Of a DNA stretch of 23,276 nucleotides, positions 1,158 through 11,760 are shown piece after piece. Each line of letters opens with the position of its first letter. The first letter of the stretch is position 1. The DNA comes from a virus. The translations under genes were made by a program, and so were the position numbers. The stretch lies in the IMG/VR virus record IMGVR_UViG_3300032298_000813, positions 1-23,276 of that record; one strand, given 5' to 3'. The notes beneath the pieces were generated by a model. That model did not search any database and was not told where the DNA came from. It saw only the letters and a program-made list of their open reading frames with translations.

Positions 1158-1529
1158 TCAGATCGTATTATCTTGAGGATTCAACATGTAAGACACGGTA
1201 ACATCAACTGAGCTACCAGTGCCTGCATAAGCACGGATAATATCTTCAGATTGAACAATAACTTTATTACCAGTCATGAATTCAAGGGAAGACTGGTTGG
1301 GTACGGTGCCAGAGGTGATGAGTGAACCTGTGATTGTTGCGCCTGATTTAACAAGCTGCACCGTAACGTTTTGCGAGTTGGCAGTTGTATTAGAAACGAG
1401 GATACTAAGAACAACGCCATAAGTACCAGCGGGTACTCCACTTGCGTTTGTGGTGCCGGAAATAATTGCAGTCGGAGAAGTAGACCCGCTGGCAATACTT
1501 TGTCTAACTACAGAAACAAAACGAGCCAT
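1158..1529 (-). CDS. Small virion structural protein, tail-fibre associated
   Basis: This 123-aa protein starts at an ATG (MARFVSVVRQS) and is rich in Ser, Thr, Val and Gly, with alternating hydrophobic residues suggesting a single beta-sandwich domain. The pattern VLSILVSNTTANSQNVTVQLV followed by VIVQSEDIIRAYAGTGSSVDVTVSYML resembles small phage tail or decoration proteins. No catalytic motif is visible. It lies between two tail fibre genes, 2 nt upstream of the partial fibre and 44 nt downstream of the 559-aa fibre. A TATAAT sequence lies about 31 nt ahead of its start. A fibre-associated or adaptor role is inferred from position and composition; no named family was recognised. Confidence 0.7.
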   Translation of the reverse strand: MARFVSVVRQSIASGSTSPTAIISGTTNASGVPAGTYGVVLSILVSNTTANSQNVTVQLVKSGATITGSLITSGTVPNQSSLEFMTGNKVIVQSEDIIRAYAGTGSSVDVTVSYMLNPQDNTI

Positions 1530-1573: not shown

Positions 1574-3253
1574 TTAACCAAGTGCAATCGCATAAACAAT
1601 TGCGCTGGTATCTGCGTAACTTTGCGTGGCAACTGGTAAACCACCGATGCTTAGACCGGAGGCAAAAATACCGGACACACCACTGATTACAGCACCGCTT
1701 AAAGTTTGAAAAACACCAGAGGTTCCTTGGATCGTCGTTCCGGTGATTGTGGTACCGCTTAAGGTGCCACTGACAATAACGCCAGAAGCAAACGATCCTG
1801 AACCAAGGACAGATAGATTGCCGCTAACCGTTAAGTTCCCTTGAACAGTATGGCCACTCGTAATTAAAGTCTGGAACGTACCAGAGGTTCCAAGGATGGT
1901 GTTGCCAGTGATTGTCGCACCGGAAAGATTGGTGAATACGCCTGACGTACCACTGACCAAAGCACCGGAAACACTGGTGGTAAACACACCAGCAATACCA
2001 GTCAAGTTTGTAAATACACCCGCATTACCTGTGACGGTTGTACCAGAAACAACTGTGGTGAAGGTACCGGATGCACCTGTAATTGTGGTGGCCCGTACAA
2101 CGTCTCCTGTAATGGTGGCACCAGAAAGAGTCGTTGTGTAAACACCCGAAACACCGGTTACAGAAGTAAACTGCCCAAAGTTTCCGGTAATGGTGGTACC
2201 TGAAACACGGCTAGTAAAGACACCACTAACACCAGTGATATTTGCAAAGCGTCCCGTATCGCCAGTAATTGTGGCTCCAGATAAGTTTGTATAAACGCCT
2301 GAAACACCCGTAATATTTGCGTACCTTCCTACATCACCAGTAATTACAGCACCCGATAAAACTTGTGTAAAGACACCAGAAACACCGCTGACATTACCAA
2401 AGTTTCCAAAAACACCAGTAACAATTGCTCCCGAAACACTGGTTGTAAAAGTCCCGGAGACACCAGTGATATTGGCAAAGCGTCCCGTATCACCTGTGAT
2501 GACAGCACCACTTAAATTTGTTGTAAAAGTTCCAGAAACACCCGTGATACTGGCTGCACGAACGGTGTCGCCAGTAATAGTGGCACCCGAAAGTGTTCCG
2601 CTGACTCGTACAGTGGTGGCAAACTGGGCAAGTCCTGAAACAATCAGTCCACTTTCAACGGTTAGATTGCCGCTCACAACTAGAGCGGGCGTTGCCAGGG
2701 TACCAAAAACACCGCTGGTTGCTGAGACGGTATTACCCGTAATGGTCTGACCACTCAGGTTGACAAAGACGCCGGAAGTACCAGAGATTGTATTGCCTGT
2801 TATTAAGGCACCACTTAACTGGGTTGAAAAATTACCACTGATTGCATTGATAGTAGTGCCAGTAACAGTCGTAGCCGTGACGGTAACACCGTTAACGTTG
2901 GTACCCTGGATGTTTGTACCAGTAACTGTCGTACCGCTAAGCGTGCCACTAACGGTTGCATTTGTTTGTACAACAAGGCTACTGACGGTAACCAAGTTGG
3001 TAACACTTAATCCTGACGTCGTAGTGGTACCAGAAACTGTCAGGTCATTTTGAATTACTACACTGCCACTAATCGTGCCACCAGTGCGCGGCAAATAGTA
3101 AACGTTTAAATACGCCTTGGTTCCAGATATGGTTAGCTTTTTGTTCTTAATTGCAGGGTCAACTTCCGCAACCTGCACAACCGTCAGCAGATCGGCTTCT
3201 GCCAACGCAAGCCCGGCAATTTCTTGTAATTCGCTAATCCTGCGATTTGCCAC
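1574..3253 (-). CDS. Repeat-rich phage tail fibre protein
   Basis: The product is 559 aa from a GTG start. The N-terminal 50 residues (ISELQEIAGLALAEADLLTV, then a Lys-rich stretch and LTISGTKAYL) match the virion-anchoring N-termini seen in many phage fibres. Residues about 218-427 form eight near-tandem units of 25-26 aa with the pattern S-G-x-F/Y-T-x3-S-G-x2-I/V-T-G-x4-F/A-x2-I-T-G-V. Shorter SG/TG units flank them. This periodicity suits a trimeric beta-helical or beta-prism shaft. The C-terminus ends with LPVATQSYADTSAIVYAIAL. Apart from Tyr and Phe the protein is poor in aromatics, and it has no Cys. The likely role is the fibre shaft, with host recognition supplied by it or by the next fibre gene. 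The GTG start is chosen because no in-frame ATG lies near it and the anchoring motif begins directly after. Confidence 0.85.
   Translation of the reverse strand: MANRRISELQEIAGLALAEADLLTVVQVAEVDPAIKNKKLTISGTKAYLNVYYLPRTGGTISGSVVIQNDLTVSGTTTTSGLSVTNLVTVSSLVVQTNATVSGTLSGTTVTGTNIQGTNVNGVTVTATTVTGTTINAISGNFSTQLSGALITGNTISGTSGVFVNLSGQTITGNTVSATSGVFGTLATPALVVSGNLTVESGLIVSGLAQFATTVRVSGTLSGATITGDTVRAASITGVSGTFTTNLSGAVITGDTGRFANITGVSGTFTTSVSGAIVTGVFGNFGNVSGVSGVFTQVLSGAVITGDVGRYANITGVSGVYTNLSGATITGDTGRFANITGVSGVFTSRVSGTTITGNFGQFTSVTGVSGVYTTTLSGATITGDVVRATTITGASGTFTTVVSGTTVTGNAGVFTNLTGIAGVFTTSVSGALVSGTSGVFTNLSGATITGNTILGTSGTFQTLITSGHTVQGNLTVSGNLSVLGSGSFASGVIVSGTLSGTTITGTTIQGTSGVFQTLSGAVISGVSGIFASGLSIGGLPVATQSYADTSAIVYAIALG
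1975..2600 (-). repeat. Tandem 75-78 bp coding repeats in tail fibre
   Basis: These are about eight diverged 25-26-codon units inside the 559-aa fibre gene. The protein pattern (SGxFTxxxSGxxITG...ITGV) is better conserved than the DNA, so this is a structural protein repeat. The boundaries are approximate. Confidence 0.75.
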
Positions 3254-3308: not shown

Positions 3309-3617
3309 TCACCTAACCTTGATCTCAAGGCGAGGCAATATGTTGGATGCAAAGTGCCAGCCTGCTTGGATTCCGGTTACTAAGCCGCAAGACAACAGGA
3401 TAACCAGTAAAAATTCAGCAACTGTCAAGTTGCGACGAAGATAGACCACCTGAGGTCTTTGCTGGGGAATTGCTACTTGTTGAGCCAGGGTTTGCTGAAT
3501 TGCCATCTCTCTGGCACGCGCTTTCATCTCTGCCAACTGATCAGGAGTGATCTGTGTAGGAATTGGTGATTGGCTGGGGGGTACTTGGTCTTCCATTTGA
3601 GCAACTGGTTTTCCCAT
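3309..3617 (-). CDS. Single-pass membrane protein, function unknown
   Basis: This is a 102-aa protein. Residues 1-60 are hydrophilic and rich in Gln and Pro (three QQ-containing runs, and a likely helix around residues 25-48). Two arginines (RR, 61-62) precede one hydrophobic segment at about 67-86 (AEFLLVILLSCGLVTGI), which is followed by a short basic tail. The predicted topology is a long N-terminal domain in the cytoplasm and one membrane span. It lies upstream of the tail fibres and diverges from the plus-strand HTH gene with a 29-nt gap. A single-span phage protein could be a holin, a spanin-like factor or a superinfection-exclusion factor. Nothing in the sequence decides between these, and the family was not recognised. 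Confidence 0.6.
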   Translation of the reverse strand: MGKPVAQMEDQVPPSQSPIPTQITPDQLAEMKARAREMAIQQTLAQQVAIPQQRPQVVYLRRNLTVAEFLLVILLSCGLVTGIQAGWHFASNILPRLEIKVR

Positions 3618-5524: not shown

Positions 5525-6112
5525 ATGAGCATACTGGCCGACTGGGAAATCAAGTATCTGGCTCAAAACAAGGAGATGATTGCTCCGTTTAAAGATCATC
5601 TTGTTAGTCAACGAGGTGAGCAACGGATCTTAAGTTATGGACTCAGTTCCTATGGCTATGACATTCGCCTGTCGCCTAAACAATGTTTAATTTTTGGACG
5701 CATTCAAGCTGGTGAATGTGATCCAAAAGAATTCAATCCTGAAATTCTTTGTGAAGCAGAATTGCTAGAAGATGAGAAAGGCCAGTATTTCATGCTGCCT
5801 CCTTATGGCTATTGCTTGGGTGTTGCCCAGGAGCGTCTCAAGCTTCCACGGGACGTAACCGTTGTCGCAGTCGGTAAATCTACATATGCACGGTCAGGGA
5901 TCTTGGTTAACATTACCCCTGCAGAATCTGGGTGGGAAGGTTATCTAACTTTGGAAATCAGTAACTGCACCGGTTTGTTTAATCGGATCTACGCTGATGA
6001 GGGCATTACACAACTGTTGTTCTATCGTGGCAACCCCTGTGAAGTTACCTACCAAGACCGTAAAGGTAAGTATCAAGATCAACCAAATAACATTGTGTTT
6101 TCTCAAGTGTGA
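5525..6112 (+). CDS. dcd: dCTP deaminase
   Basis: This 195-aa protein is the usual length for the trimeric dCTP deaminase/dUTPase family. The enzyme deaminates dCTP to dUTP and so feeds dTTP synthesis. Visible motifs are SSYGYDIRLSP (41-51), GKSTYARSGILVN (117-129) with the conserved Ser and Arg, and TPAESGWEGYLTLEISN (131-147), whose Glu144 matches the catalytic glutamate of Escherichia coli Dcd. The Gln-rich tail GKYQDQPNNIVF (181-192) matches the nucleotide-closing C-terminal arm. The ATG start gives the expected N-terminus (MSILADWEI), although no clear Shine-Dalgarno precedes it. It is the last gene of the plus cluster and ends 6 nt from the convergent stop of the next minus gene. The bifunctional deaminase/dUTPase form cannot be excluded by eye. 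Confidence 0.88.
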   Translation: MSILADWEIKYLAQNKEMIAPFKDHLVSQRGEQRILSYGLSSYGYDIRLSPKQCLIFGRIQAGECDPKEFNPEILCEAELLEDEKGQYFMLPPYGYCLGVAQERLKLPRDVTVVAVGKSTYARSGILVNITPAESGWEGYLTLEISNCTGLFNRIYADEGITQLLFYRGNPCEVTYQDRKGKYQDQPNNIVFSQV

Positions 6113-6118
6113 CTTGAG

Positions 6119-6493
6119 TTAAACAAATGCTTTGCCAAATTGGGCGCCTGGTTTGTCAGCATAGTTGGTACTACCAGCCCGCCCAATAGTGTCCCCCATG
6201 CTGGGTAAAGCACTACCAGCAATTGATAGTTCAGTTCTAGGTGTTCTACCGTTAACAGTCGGTTCTGCAATTAAAGAACGCTTTTTGTATTCACCTGCGC
6301 TCTTAGCAGCACGCATGAATTTTCCAATGCGATTTTGATTGTTATTTATTGCTTCAACTGCGCCACGTTCTTCTGGATCTACGCGCCGCATATCTGTATC
6401 GTACGCCTGTTCAGGACGTAAGTCCGAACTTTCAGACGCAGACGTACCCGAGTCTTGACGCGGATCGTAAAGAGCATCAAAGAATTTTGCCAT
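6119..6493 (-). CDS. Hypothetical phage protein
   Basis: This 124-aa protein starts at the ATG at 6493 (MAKFFDALYDPRQDSG). The frame could extend to a TTG at 6520, but that adds only nine unremarkable residues. It is hydrophilic and probably partly disordered: an acidic Ser/Asp-rich N-terminus, a basic middle (NRIGKFMRAAKSAGEYKKRS) and a Gly/Ala-rich end (GSTNYADKPGAQFGKAF). No family was recognised. Similar composition is common in small virion-associated proteins, but that is only suggestive. It lies alone on the minus strand between two plus-strand blocks, convergent with dCTP deaminase and divergent from the gene at 6535. Confidence 0.6.
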   Translation of the reverse strand: MAKFFDALYDPRQDSGTSASESSDLRPEQAYDTDMRRVDPEERGAVEAINNNQNRIGKFMRAAKSAGEYKKRSLIAEPTVNGRTPRTELSIAGSALPSMGDTIGRAGSTNYADKPGAQFGKAFV

Positions 6494-6534: not shown

Positions 6535-6906
6535 ATGCACGGCAATAGTGCTGCTGGTTTCTTAGATAGTTTCGTTCAAGACGAAATTAAATGCCGCTGT
6601 CTCGATGAAGACGATTTTGGGCAGCCCATCGATAACGAAGAAAATGATGTACCCTTGTATGACATGTACAACAGGGGTCTAGCGGCATGCGAACAGGGAA
6701 TGGAAAGGACCAATCTGGGTCTGGAAGGGAATCCTGCGTTGGAAGGCCAGAGGCCGGGCATGACGGGTTACATTCCCTCGATGGAGGAAGCACTTGCAAC
6801 GAACCCGGGCTCCTCTCCGCGACCCAAGGTGCTGATGCTGAATCTGAACGGCCCCAGCGAAGAGATGCTGGAGCAGTCGAAAAAACGTCGTGGTTTGAGC
6901 CGGTAG
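6535..6906 (+). CDS. Hypothetical acidic protein, possibly fused by frameshift to DUF3310
   Basis: This 123-aa protein has an acidic N-terminal half (VQDEIKCRCLDEDDFGQ, EENDVPLYDMYN) and a C-terminal half with a regular helix and strand pattern (SMEEALATNP, KVLMLNLNGPSEEMLEQSKK). It was not recognised. Its last 220 nt overlap the frame that encodes the DUF3310 domain. Here the 123-aa frame looks like the genuine one, since the overlapping frame is rich in Gly, Ser and Arg in the manner of a shadow reading. A run of six A's at 6880-6885, just before its stop, is where a -1 shift would join the two products. AGAGAAAAATC before the ATG is a poor Shine-Dalgarno. Confidence 0.6.
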   Translation: MHGNSAAGFLDSFVQDEIKCRCLDEDDFGQPIDNEENDVPLYDMYNRGLAACEQGMERTNLGLEGNPALEGQRPGMTGYIPSMEEALATNPGSSPRPKVLMLNLNGPSEEMLEQSKKRRGLSR

Positions 6907-7190
6907 AAGACAACGGTTGTAAAGATGGGGTATGTCCAGTTCCATGGGCAACCAAACCTTACCGTCCTGAGCTAAAGCCTGATCTAGTCAATCATCCGCC
7001 GCATTACAATGACGGATCCATCGAATGCATCGACGCAATTGAAGCGCAGCTGACGCCAGAAGAGTACCGAGGTTACCTGAAGGGAAACGTTGCGAAATAC
7101 GGCTGGCGTGAGCGCCATAAAGGCGGGACAGAATCACTGAGGAAGGCACGTTTTTACCTGAATCGTTTGATCGAGTTTGACGAAAATTAG
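6687..7190 (+). CDS. DUF3310 (SaV-like) family protein
   Basis: The C-terminal part is a clear DUF3310 domain. VNHPPHYNDGSIECIDAIEA is followed by LTPEEYRGYLKGNVAKYGWR, KGG and LRKARFYLNRLIEFDEN. This roughly 60-aa phage domain is widespread, is usually annotated as unknown or SaV-like, and lies among phage nucleotide-metabolism genes. The start is problematic. The only in-frame standard start before the domain is the ATG at 6687, giving 167 aa whose first 70 residues look like a shadow of the overlapping gene. Typical members begin shortly before the VNHPxHY motif. Either this long overlap is real or the domain is made by frameshifting from the 6535 frame. The stop overlaps the convergent NblA-like gene by 3-4 nt. 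Confidence 0.75.
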   Translation: MRTGNGKDQSGSGRESCVGRPEAGHDGLHSLDGGSTCNEPGLLSATQGADAESERPQRRDAGAVEKTSWFEPVEDNGCKDGVCPVPWATKPYRPELKPDLVNHPPHYNDGSIECIDAIEAQLTPEEYRGYLKGNVAKYGWRERHKGGTESLRKARFYLNRLIEFDEN

Positions 7191-7480
7191 AAAGGAAGAG
7201 CTTCTTCTTCGTCGTCGTCCTCATCTTCGTCACCAATGCAACTGGCAACCAGTTCAGCCAGCTCTAAATCGGTGGGGATATCAAAATCAATCTCGATATT
7301 CTCATCGGCCATCAGCGATTTGACGGCATACCACTCCATTAAACGTTGGTGGTACAGATTAAGGAGCGCGGAATAGAGCTGGTCCCAGGTCATCTCCTGG
7401 GCTTGCAACTCCGCTTTACGCATGGAAAACTGCAGCTCCAAGGGAAGCTCAAACTCCCGGGGTTCAACCGAACGTTCCAT
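7187..7480 (-). CDS. nblA: NblA-like phycobilisome degradation protein
   Basis: This 97-aa protein starts at the ATG at 7480 (a GTG at 7492 would add four residues). Residues 11-57 align without gaps to the NblA/Ycf18 consensus: LPLELQFSMRKAELQ against LSLEQQFKLRAFETQ, then MTWDQLYSALLNLYHQRLM with the conserved Gln, Leu, LY and Gln positions, and a short helix ending in SLM. NblA is a small helical hairpin that binds phycobiliproteins and delivers them to Clp protease, dismantling phycobilisomes. Phage copies are known from freshwater cyanophages. This one has an unusual C-terminal extension of about 35 residues ending in a strongly acidic run (residues 84-94). It is the last gene on the late minus strand, 36 nt after the lysozyme gene. 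Confidence 0.75.
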   Translation of the reverse strand: MERSVEPREFELPLELQFSMRKAELQAQEMTWDQLYSALLNLYHQRLMEWYAVKSLMADENIEIDFDIPTDLELAELVASCIGDEDEDDDEEEALPF

Positions 7481-7516
7481 TCCGCTCTGCACGTCTTCAA
7501 TGCAACTATTCTAATC

Positions 7517-8176
7517 CTAGCTGTTGAAGATACCCGTTAAGCTCTCTTGGGTGTAATCGTCCCACGAAGTATCGTCAATTTGGAATTCGTTGGCAAATTC
7601 TGACAATACATAAGGGCTGACACGTTCTTCTAGGTGACGAATCGCTTTAACCTGATGAGCTGCCGCCGCATAGTTGCGAAAGGCTCGCAACAAAATCTCT
7701 GTTGTGCCCCAGGGGTTTGCATCGGTTTCCTGCAGGAATAGTGCTGCTTCCTCCTTGCGTCTTTCTAGCAGACCACCAATTACTTGATGTTCTTCGTCAA
7801 AAACCCAACGACCAATTTCCTCGGTTGCTGTGCAAAAATCTTCATTCTCAATGGCATCTACAAGATGGCTGTAGAGGAATGATTCCCATCCAACGGAATG
7901 GATGAAAGAAATTAAAGCCTGGCGCATGGAATCATCTAGGCCCAGGTTTAATTTTTCTAGTTGAGTGTCAATAATATTGGTTTCGTGAAACAAATACTCC
8001 AATGCTTTTTCTTTACTGCAGCACTGCCCCTTTTTTACGGGGGCACCGTCAGGGTAAAACTGAGTACCAAAACCGATGGTGTACGGCTCTGCTCCCGTAG
8101 TTGGATCTGGGTACGCGCTTTCGTTATAACCTTCGTATTTACGAATTAGGTTGATAGCATACGAAAAGTCCGACAT
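7517..8176 (-). CDS. Endolysin, GH24 (T4-type) lysozyme
   Basis: This 219-aa protein starts at ATG 8176; an upstream TTG at 8200 would add eight residues and is less likely. The N-terminal region carries the T4-lysozyme catalytic triad pattern: KYEGYNESAYPDP with Glu15 and Asp24 (spacing identical to T4 Glu11/Asp20), then PYTIGFGT with Thr33. The middle contains the expected helices (LDDSMRQALISFIHSVGW, GLLERRKEEAALFL). The last 60-70 residues are an extra helical, acidic extension of unknown role. The enzyme cleaves the peptidoglycan glycan backbone for host lysis. No signal peptide is visible, so release would depend on a holin. It sits downstream of two small basic protein genes and immediately upstream of the NblA-like gene. 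Confidence 0.88.
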   Translation of the reverse strand: MSDFSYAINLIRKYEGYNESAYPDPTTGAEPYTIGFGTQFYPDGAPVKKGQCCSKEKALEYLFHETNIIDTQLEKLNLGLDDSMRQALISFIHSVGWESFLYSHLVDAIENEDFCTATEEIGRWVFDEEHQVIGGLLERRKEEAALFLQETDANPWGTTEILLRAFRNYAAAAHQVKAIRHLEERVSPYVLSEFANEFQIDDTSWDDYTQESLTGIFNS

Positions 8177-11314: not shown

Positions 11315-11677
11315 TCAAACCGCCAGTTGTAACGTATCTACCTGATACACAAAGAGGTCTATAGCCTCTTGGGACGTCCAGGTTTTAATTCTATCCATCT
11401 TAGCCTGATTAAAGAATTCTTGTTTTTTGTACCAAGTTTCCATCGGCTCGCTTGCCTTAGACGTATTACAACGCCGACATGCTGGAAGTAAGTTATTCCG
11501 ATTACTAGAGCCTGATTTAAACCGTGGGATGATGTGGTCTAAGCTCGTTGCTTCGTCACCGCAGTAACCACATTTACAGTTCCAGGAGTCGTAGATAGCT
11601 TGTCGAAATCGTTTCTTTGCAAGTTTAGGAGTCAGTTCAAGGAGCAATGCGAGAGGTTCGTGTTCGCAGCTGAACAT
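11315..11677 (-). CDS. HNH endonuclease
   Basis: This 120-aa protein starts at ATG 11677; a TTG two codons upstream is less likely. It has a classic compact HNH core with a structural zinc site: CGYCG (36-40), SLDHIIPRFKSG (45-56) with the catalytic His48, SNRNNLLPAC (58-67) with the central Asn, and CRRCNTSKAS (67-76). It is free-standing, with short helical arms for DNA contact. It ends one base before the start of the 894-aa gene and lies between that gene and the plus-strand HTH gene. The position between two virion genes suggests a homing endonuclease that spreads into late-gene junctions. A role in packaging as a nicking partner of terminase is an alternative, but no terminase is visible here. 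Confidence 0.85.
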   Translation of the reverse strand: MFSCEHEPLALLLELTPKLAKKRFRQAIYDSWNCKCGYCGDEATSLDHIIPRFKSGSSNRNNLLPACRRCNTSKASEPMETWYKKQEFFNQAKMDRIKTWTSQEAIDLFVYQVDTLQLAV

Positions 11678-11760
11678 GCTCAATTTGCAGTTATCTTATT
11701 TTAATTTGACCTCATACATTTTCAACTTAAATATAAAGATAAAAAAACTGTAAACCCCCC

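Follow-up and report, generated by a model that had tools for sequence, protein, structure and literature searches.

An NblA-like gene behind the endolysin of S-EIV1-like cyanophages carries an acidic tail with an SSB-type end

The stretch of DNA analysed here (the window) is the 23,276-base virus record IMGVR_UViG_3300032298_000813. Compared with 50,697 phage records, it has a single near match, Synechococcus phage S-EIV1, at 76.2% identity over 27% of the window. On its minus strand, directly downstream of a lysozyme gene, lies a short gene whose product combines a core related to NblA with an additional conserved segment, a run of acidic residues and a C-terminal tip of the kind found on single-stranded DNA-binding proteins (SSBs). 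The features of the locus are as follows.

7187–7480, minus strand: NblA-like gene, 97 aa, ATG start
7307–7453, minus strand: NblA-related core, residues 10–58 (Pfam PF04485, hhalign, AlphaFold2)
7232–7306, minus strand: conserved segment, residues 59–83 (ENI..DFDIPTDLELAEL), helix predicted at 71–85
7202–7231, minus strand: acidic run, residues 84–93, ten acidic residues in a row, most of them where the end of the model has low confidence
7190–7201, minus strand: ALPF-COOH tip, residues 94–97, SSB-type end
7517–8176, minus strand: lysozyme/endolysin, directly upstream of the NblA-like gene (Pfam Phage_lysozyme, E value 2.9e-19)
6687–7190, plus strand: convergent DUF3310 ORF (Pfam PF11753, E value 3.4e-17), its 3' end overlapping the end of the NblA-like gene
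6119–6493 (candidate), 3309–3617, 1574–3253 and 1158–1529, minus strand: further ORFs past the convergent plus-strand genes

A gap of 36 nt (7481–7516) separates the lysozyme stop from the NblA-like ORF, as an earlier note made from the sequence had described. An alternative GTG start four codons upstream of the ATG is possible, and the family alignment gives it no support. Scans for Rfam families, tRNAs, promoters and terminators returned nothing above chance; because the terminator scan found no terminator-like site between the two genes, their co-expression is plausible, and expression of the NblA-like gene timed with lysis is a plausible reading of the gene order and the same missing site. 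The earlier note was wrong to place it at the end of the late minus strand, since minus-strand ORFs resume at 6119–6493, 3309–3617, 1574–3253 and 1158–1529, and the annotated S-EIV1 genome likewise returns to the late strand past its opposing genes. The ORF at 1574–3253 encodes a 559-residue, repeat-rich protein without a Pfam match at E ≤ 0.01. Elsewhere in the window, a dCTP deaminase-like gene (5525–6112, plus strand) and an HNH endonuclease gene (11315–11683, minus strand) each have a same-named gene in an equivalent neighbourhood of S-EIV1.

The gene belongs to a family of S-EIV1-like cyanophages with at least 179 loci and at least 109 distinct proteins, collected by IMG/VR searches that started from the window protein, from a divergent relative and from the S-EIV1 protein, and by adding a contig from a metagenome-assembled genome (MAG), S-EIV1 itself and the window. 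One of these searches contributed the best 80 of 251 relatives, so the sample of 179 loci favours close relatives. The window and S-EIV1 are counted among them, some contigs occur twice (for example, L082 and L130), and L253 and L254 are nearly identical. Among the matches listed, 175 of the 179 loci encode proteins of 93–108 aa, and a stop codon is reached in all 179. The remaining four, L150, L170, L177 and L178, fall below 93 aa; L150 and L170 start inside the gene, and the L150 copy, from contig G018, is split by a run of N. Among the matches listed, 174 of the 179 loci have a lysozyme gene upstream in the same orientation, the other five having less than 700 nt of upstream sequence, and the gap between the two genes is 20–80 nt in 173 loci and 792 nt in one. 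The placement behind the endolysin that the earlier note pointed out is therefore both real and conserved, and this coupling is fixed within the lineage sampled.

The NblA-like gene is a real gene, and its acidic tail is under purifying selection: dN/dS is 0.029 in the core (codons 1–80) and 0.083 in the tail (beyond codon 80), from 176 equal-length pairs with 2–15% divergence drawn from 147 distinct coding sequences. The S-EIV1 orthologue, AHV82245.1 (KJ410740, 73902–74222), is annotated as ‘hypothetical protein’ and is 64.2% identical to the window protein over 81 residues. It occupies the equivalent place, directly behind a lysozyme gene and facing a convergent gene.

Several comparisons relate the core to NblA/Ycf18 (PF04485; PDB 1ojh), a small host protein that sets off the dismantling of the light antenna and with which it shares an ungapped stretch of 47–49 residues. 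Residues 11–57 of the window protein align without gaps to positions 1–47 of the 50-position Pfam model, and profile–profile comparison with hhalign extends this to 49 ungapped columns (E value 8.9e-6, probability about 83.1–83.9%), in line with the gapless alignment over roughly 47 residues that the earlier note had reported. The highest probability among 100 column-shuffled NblA profiles was 5.0%, and a reversed profile gave 1.2% (E value 0.045). When a profile of the family was searched against 177,635 distinct PDB sequences, the best match was the solved NblA 1ojh (E value 2.5e-4). Two other matches, DUF4030 in Pfam (E value 0.0013; 4 of 29 members) and HRD1 chains in the PDB profile search, were rejected as noise from the charged end.

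The PF04485 match itself sits at the edge of the Pfam threshold. The window protein scores 24.7 bits, short of the gathering cut-off of 25 by a small margin, and a six-frame search gives 25.6 bits, above it; the profile search proposed in the earlier note thus gives a borderline score. Relatives score 25.6, 25.3, 24.9 (25.2 with neighbours), 23.5, 19.4 and 17.4 bits, the last being the S-EIV1 protein, and the G018 copy, split by the assembly gap, gives no match. Across the family, 27 of 29 diverse members match PF04485 at E ≤ 0.01, compared with 4 of 29 for the next-best family, and all 25 members of one alignment (A1) do so at E ≤ 0.1. The window protein has no match in PHROGs or NCBIfam. From these sequence comparisons we conclude that the core is remotely homologous to NblA.

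AlphaFold2 predicts helices at residues 14–28, 32–59 and 71–85, with low confidence from residue 86 on, and we use the model (pTM 0.45) for secondary structure only; a second model is similar, with lower confidence. Over the block of residues 11–60, pLDDT is 86–93 in one model and 75–86 in the other. Two helices are thus predicted in the core (14–28 and 32–59) for the structural comparison with NblA that the earlier note had in mind, but NblA is not among the matches that Foldseek returned from the PDB for either model. A fold search of BFVD gave no match at E ≤ 0.001, and a second look with VIA-align produced a single row (Z 2.5) and led nowhere.

What follows the core sets the protein apart from known NblAs. 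Whereas 1ojh has 65 residues and the aligned plasmid-encoded NblAs with annotated ends have 60–70, the window protein has 97, with an extra conserved segment, an acidic run and an xPF tip. The earlier note had described a strongly acidic tail of roughly 35 residues. There is indeed an extension, of about 39 residues, but only about 14 of these form the strongly acidic part; residues 59–83 are instead a conserved segment with a consensus around E-N-I...D-F-D-I-P-T-D-L-E-L..L, which contains most of the third predicted helix and aligns to no part of the cellular NblAs compared. In those NblAs, the core is followed at a fixed distance by W-x-L or W-x-V in all seven aligned proteins that reach that far, in an alignment of nine rows in which the Kovacikia row is cut at the match and the PaV-LD protein ends earlier. 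Neither motif is in place at the aligned distance in the phage family. At residue 66, 28 of 29 members have an aromatic (23 F, 5 W) and one has I, and this conserved aromatic could be a displaced counterpart of the NblA tryptophan. We treat the W-x-L/W-x-V end as a usual, not a defining, trait of NblA, as the PaV-LD NblA also ends without W-x-L; the phage protein may have lost or changed a contact with the antenna.

The real or reported NblAs of the cyanophages Ma-LMM01, PaV-LD and S-SCSM1, unlike the window protein, have no acidic xPF tail. Those of Ma-LMM01 and PaV-LD score 52 and 45.4 bits with PF04485, and that of S-SCSM1 has no match at E ≤ 1. The profile of our family matched none of the three at E ≤ 10, in a search that had no positive control, and no phage turned up in tblastn with a fragment of NblA, though the PF04485 model detects Ma-LMM01 and PaV-LD. 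The published nblA of S-SCSM1 (L267, 52–216; 54 aa) directly follows tail-fibre and virion genes, and late placement of a phage nblA would therefore not be unique to the lineage studied here.

The window protein ends in DEDEDDDEEEALPF, that is, acidic residues followed by xPF with phenylalanine as the last residue. The acidic tail of the earlier note is real and under purifying selection; its xPF end had gone without mention. This is the arrangement of the SSB docking motif, a C-terminal acidic-xPF (DDDIPF in E. coli) with more than 14 reported partners, in which the carboxylate of the terminal phenylalanine is thought to form a salt bridge with an arginine of the pocket in DnaG (PMC5872125). 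Acidic residues and xPF with a C-terminal phenylalanine are shared with the E. coli tip by the window protein and 73 of 109 distinct proteins among the matches listed; the tip here stands behind an NblA-like core and not behind an SSB domain, for which (PF00436) neither Pfam nor PHROGs gave a match at E ≤ 1 in the window protein, leaving the tip alone in common.

Among the matches listed, all 109 distinct proteins have a net charge of −6 to −13 over their last 20 residues, and 36 of them do not end in PF. In 28 of these 36 the PF is followed by one to four further residues, 27 times in the form DPF, and the eight with neither form comprise one ending in DPLESV and seven from a remote group within L172–L182, with ends such as NCFL and SFAV. 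PF is the end of all 25 proteins in alignment A1. A second alignment, A2, as well as one search query, used the L086 protein, which ends in NPFESV, minus its last three residues, and the invariant PF of A2 is therefore not evidence.

The phages’ own SSBs carry the same kind of end, and the tip of the NblA-like protein resembles this docking tip. The S-EIV1 SSB (PF00436, E value 1.9e-8; PHROG 44) ends in DEPF. Both genes could be paired in 24 genomes or contigs (leaving out 18 of 35 records without an SSB and 8 of 14 without an NblA-like gene), which are not independent because the genomes share ancestry. In 21 of these (S-EIV1 and 14 plus 6 further genomes or contigs) both proteins end in xPF. 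In two, the SSB ends in ETDPF or SEDPF and the NblA-like protein in DPFTPA; their SSBs are remote, with profile E values of 1.6e-24 and 3.8e-21 and Pfam scores below cut-off or none. In the last, the remote contig G024, neither protein has PF; its SSB frame ends in CFQLF, an end that is uncertain because a relative with 97% identity ends in DDNEHF. The phage SSBs L244 and L245, 97% identical to each other, show these same two ends, so one of them may be misassembled or have an altered stop. Another remote-type SSB (L243) ends in HPPF.

In S-EIV1, only 3 of 596 stop-to-stop frames of at least 50 codons end in PF, namely the SSB, the NblA-like protein and a 67-residue hypothetical protein (L083, 14686–14889, plus strand) that ends in RGDDTPF and matches nothing in Pfam or PHROGs at E ≤ 0.01. 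A stricter acidic-PF pattern returned exactly the SSB and the NblA-like protein in G011 (2 of 401 frames) and G018 (2 of 336), the NblA-like protein alone in G001 (1 of 595) and nothing in G024 (0 of 441). This pattern missed the G001 SSB. A relaxed one returned 2 frames in G011, 3 of 595 in G001, 3 of 336 in G018, 0 of 441 in G024 and 4 of 612 in S-EIV1 (scanned as two overlapping pieces); beyond the SSB and the NblA-like protein, these contain one extra each in G001 and G018 and two in S-EIV1. Whole contigs were scanned in 20-kb pieces, with frames cut at piece ends uncounted. In several of these genomes, the SSB and the NblA-like protein stand out among the frames with an acidic-PF end.

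The end of the tail suggests that the protein may be an adaptor that has gained a new partner. The explanation we tentatively prefer, and which as a whole we place slightly below an even call, is that the gene product is a phage version, or a close sister, of the NblA adaptors and that its tail docks at the site used by the phage SSB. We infer that the protein would dimerise like NblA and act as an adaptor of a Clp protease late in infection; its tail would fit the pocket of one or several binding partners of the SSB tip, and the adaptor would thereby be tethered to the replication machinery or compete there. For the docking of the tip, the chances look about balanced, whereas breakdown of phycobilisomes, which distant homology suggests, seems marginally more doubtful. 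Counted against this reading are the 36 of 109 distinct proteins among the matches listed that lack a free terminal phenylalanine, which stand against a strict SSB mimic, together with the PF04485 scores of 24.7 bits (17.4 in S-EIV1), the silence of PHROGs and NCBIfam, the Foldseek matches without NblA, the W-x-L or W-x-V missing from its usual position, the extra frames that the relaxed pattern picks in G001, G018 and S-EIV1 with none in G024, and the shared ancestry of the 24 pairs. Those same 36 proteins would fit a plain viral NblA that breaks down phycobilisomes like that of Ma-LMM01 or PaV-LD, in which the tail serves solubility or tunes binding and its PF likeness is coincidental. The homology of the core in PF04485 and hhalign agrees with this, as do the PaV-LD protein, also without W-x-L, and the reported activity of PaV-LD and other viral NblAs (PMC9602691, PMC5780444). 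We nevertheless consider it unlikely, if the least so of the alternatives: the Ma-LMM01, PaV-LD and S-SCSM1 proteins have no such tail, PF ends all 25 proteins of A1, and the SSB and NblA-like protein stand out as acidic-PF frames in several genomes.

The tail might instead dock on the protease, the acidic linker and hydrophobic tip binding the unfoldase while the hairpin holds a substrate. The tail of the adaptor SspB binds ClpX in this way of working, and the anatomy of the phage protein, a folded core followed by a low-confidence acidic run and a short tip, is compatible with it, as is the report that cellular NblA binds ClpC and phycobilisomes simultaneously (PMC7760959). It would leave the tip shared with the phage SSB unexplained, unless the SSB itself is handed to the protease, and we regard it as improbable. 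Less probable still is a small helical phage protein that is no adaptor, whose core only resembles NblA and which controls replication or packaging through its SSB-type tail. The Pfam score just below cut-off, the absence of NblA from the fold matches and the additional conserved segment at 59–83 would suit such a protein; the ungapped 49-column profile match, far above its shuffled controls, and NblA being the only family that matches nearly all members (27 of 29, the next 4 of 29) argue against it. Returning to the preferred reading of an NblA-type adaptor with an SSB-type docking tail, a bolder version, which we rate a long shot, would have the NblA core kept to recruit Clp, the part after it changed and the SSB docking tip added. 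Late in infection such an adaptor would deliver to Clp the primase, polymerase or nucleases, of phage or host, that bind the SSB tip, or pull them off the SSB, so that replication is shut down before packaging and lysis; it would then link protease and replisome and not be purely an antenna breaker.

If the protein is an active NblA, the S-EIV1 lineage would be a further case of phages dismantling light harvesting. Should the tail dock in the manner of SSB, it would show how a short tail can re-aim a protease adaptor, and peptides offer a direct test of this. Nadel et al. (2025), writing on viral NblA, may already cover the NblA-like family of S-EIV1-like phages, and the novelty of the bare NblA assignment is uncertain. 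Phage nblA as such is well known (PMC9602691, PMC5780444). In one marine survey, the S-EIV1 group ranked fourth in abundance among cyanophage groups, with 3.3% of cyanophage content, and the table of that 2017 survey gives hli and ptoX for the group and does not list nblA (PMC5332604). Among the titles and abstract openings searched, we found no report of an S-EIV1-type NblA-like protein or of its SSB-type tip; the new observation here is the acidic run ending in -ALPF-COOH, like the SSB docking tip. One S-EIV1-like copy of the gene (L086, 5001–5306) comes from a MAG that bears the label Euryarchaeota archaeon SP67, in which its contig is probably mis-binned.
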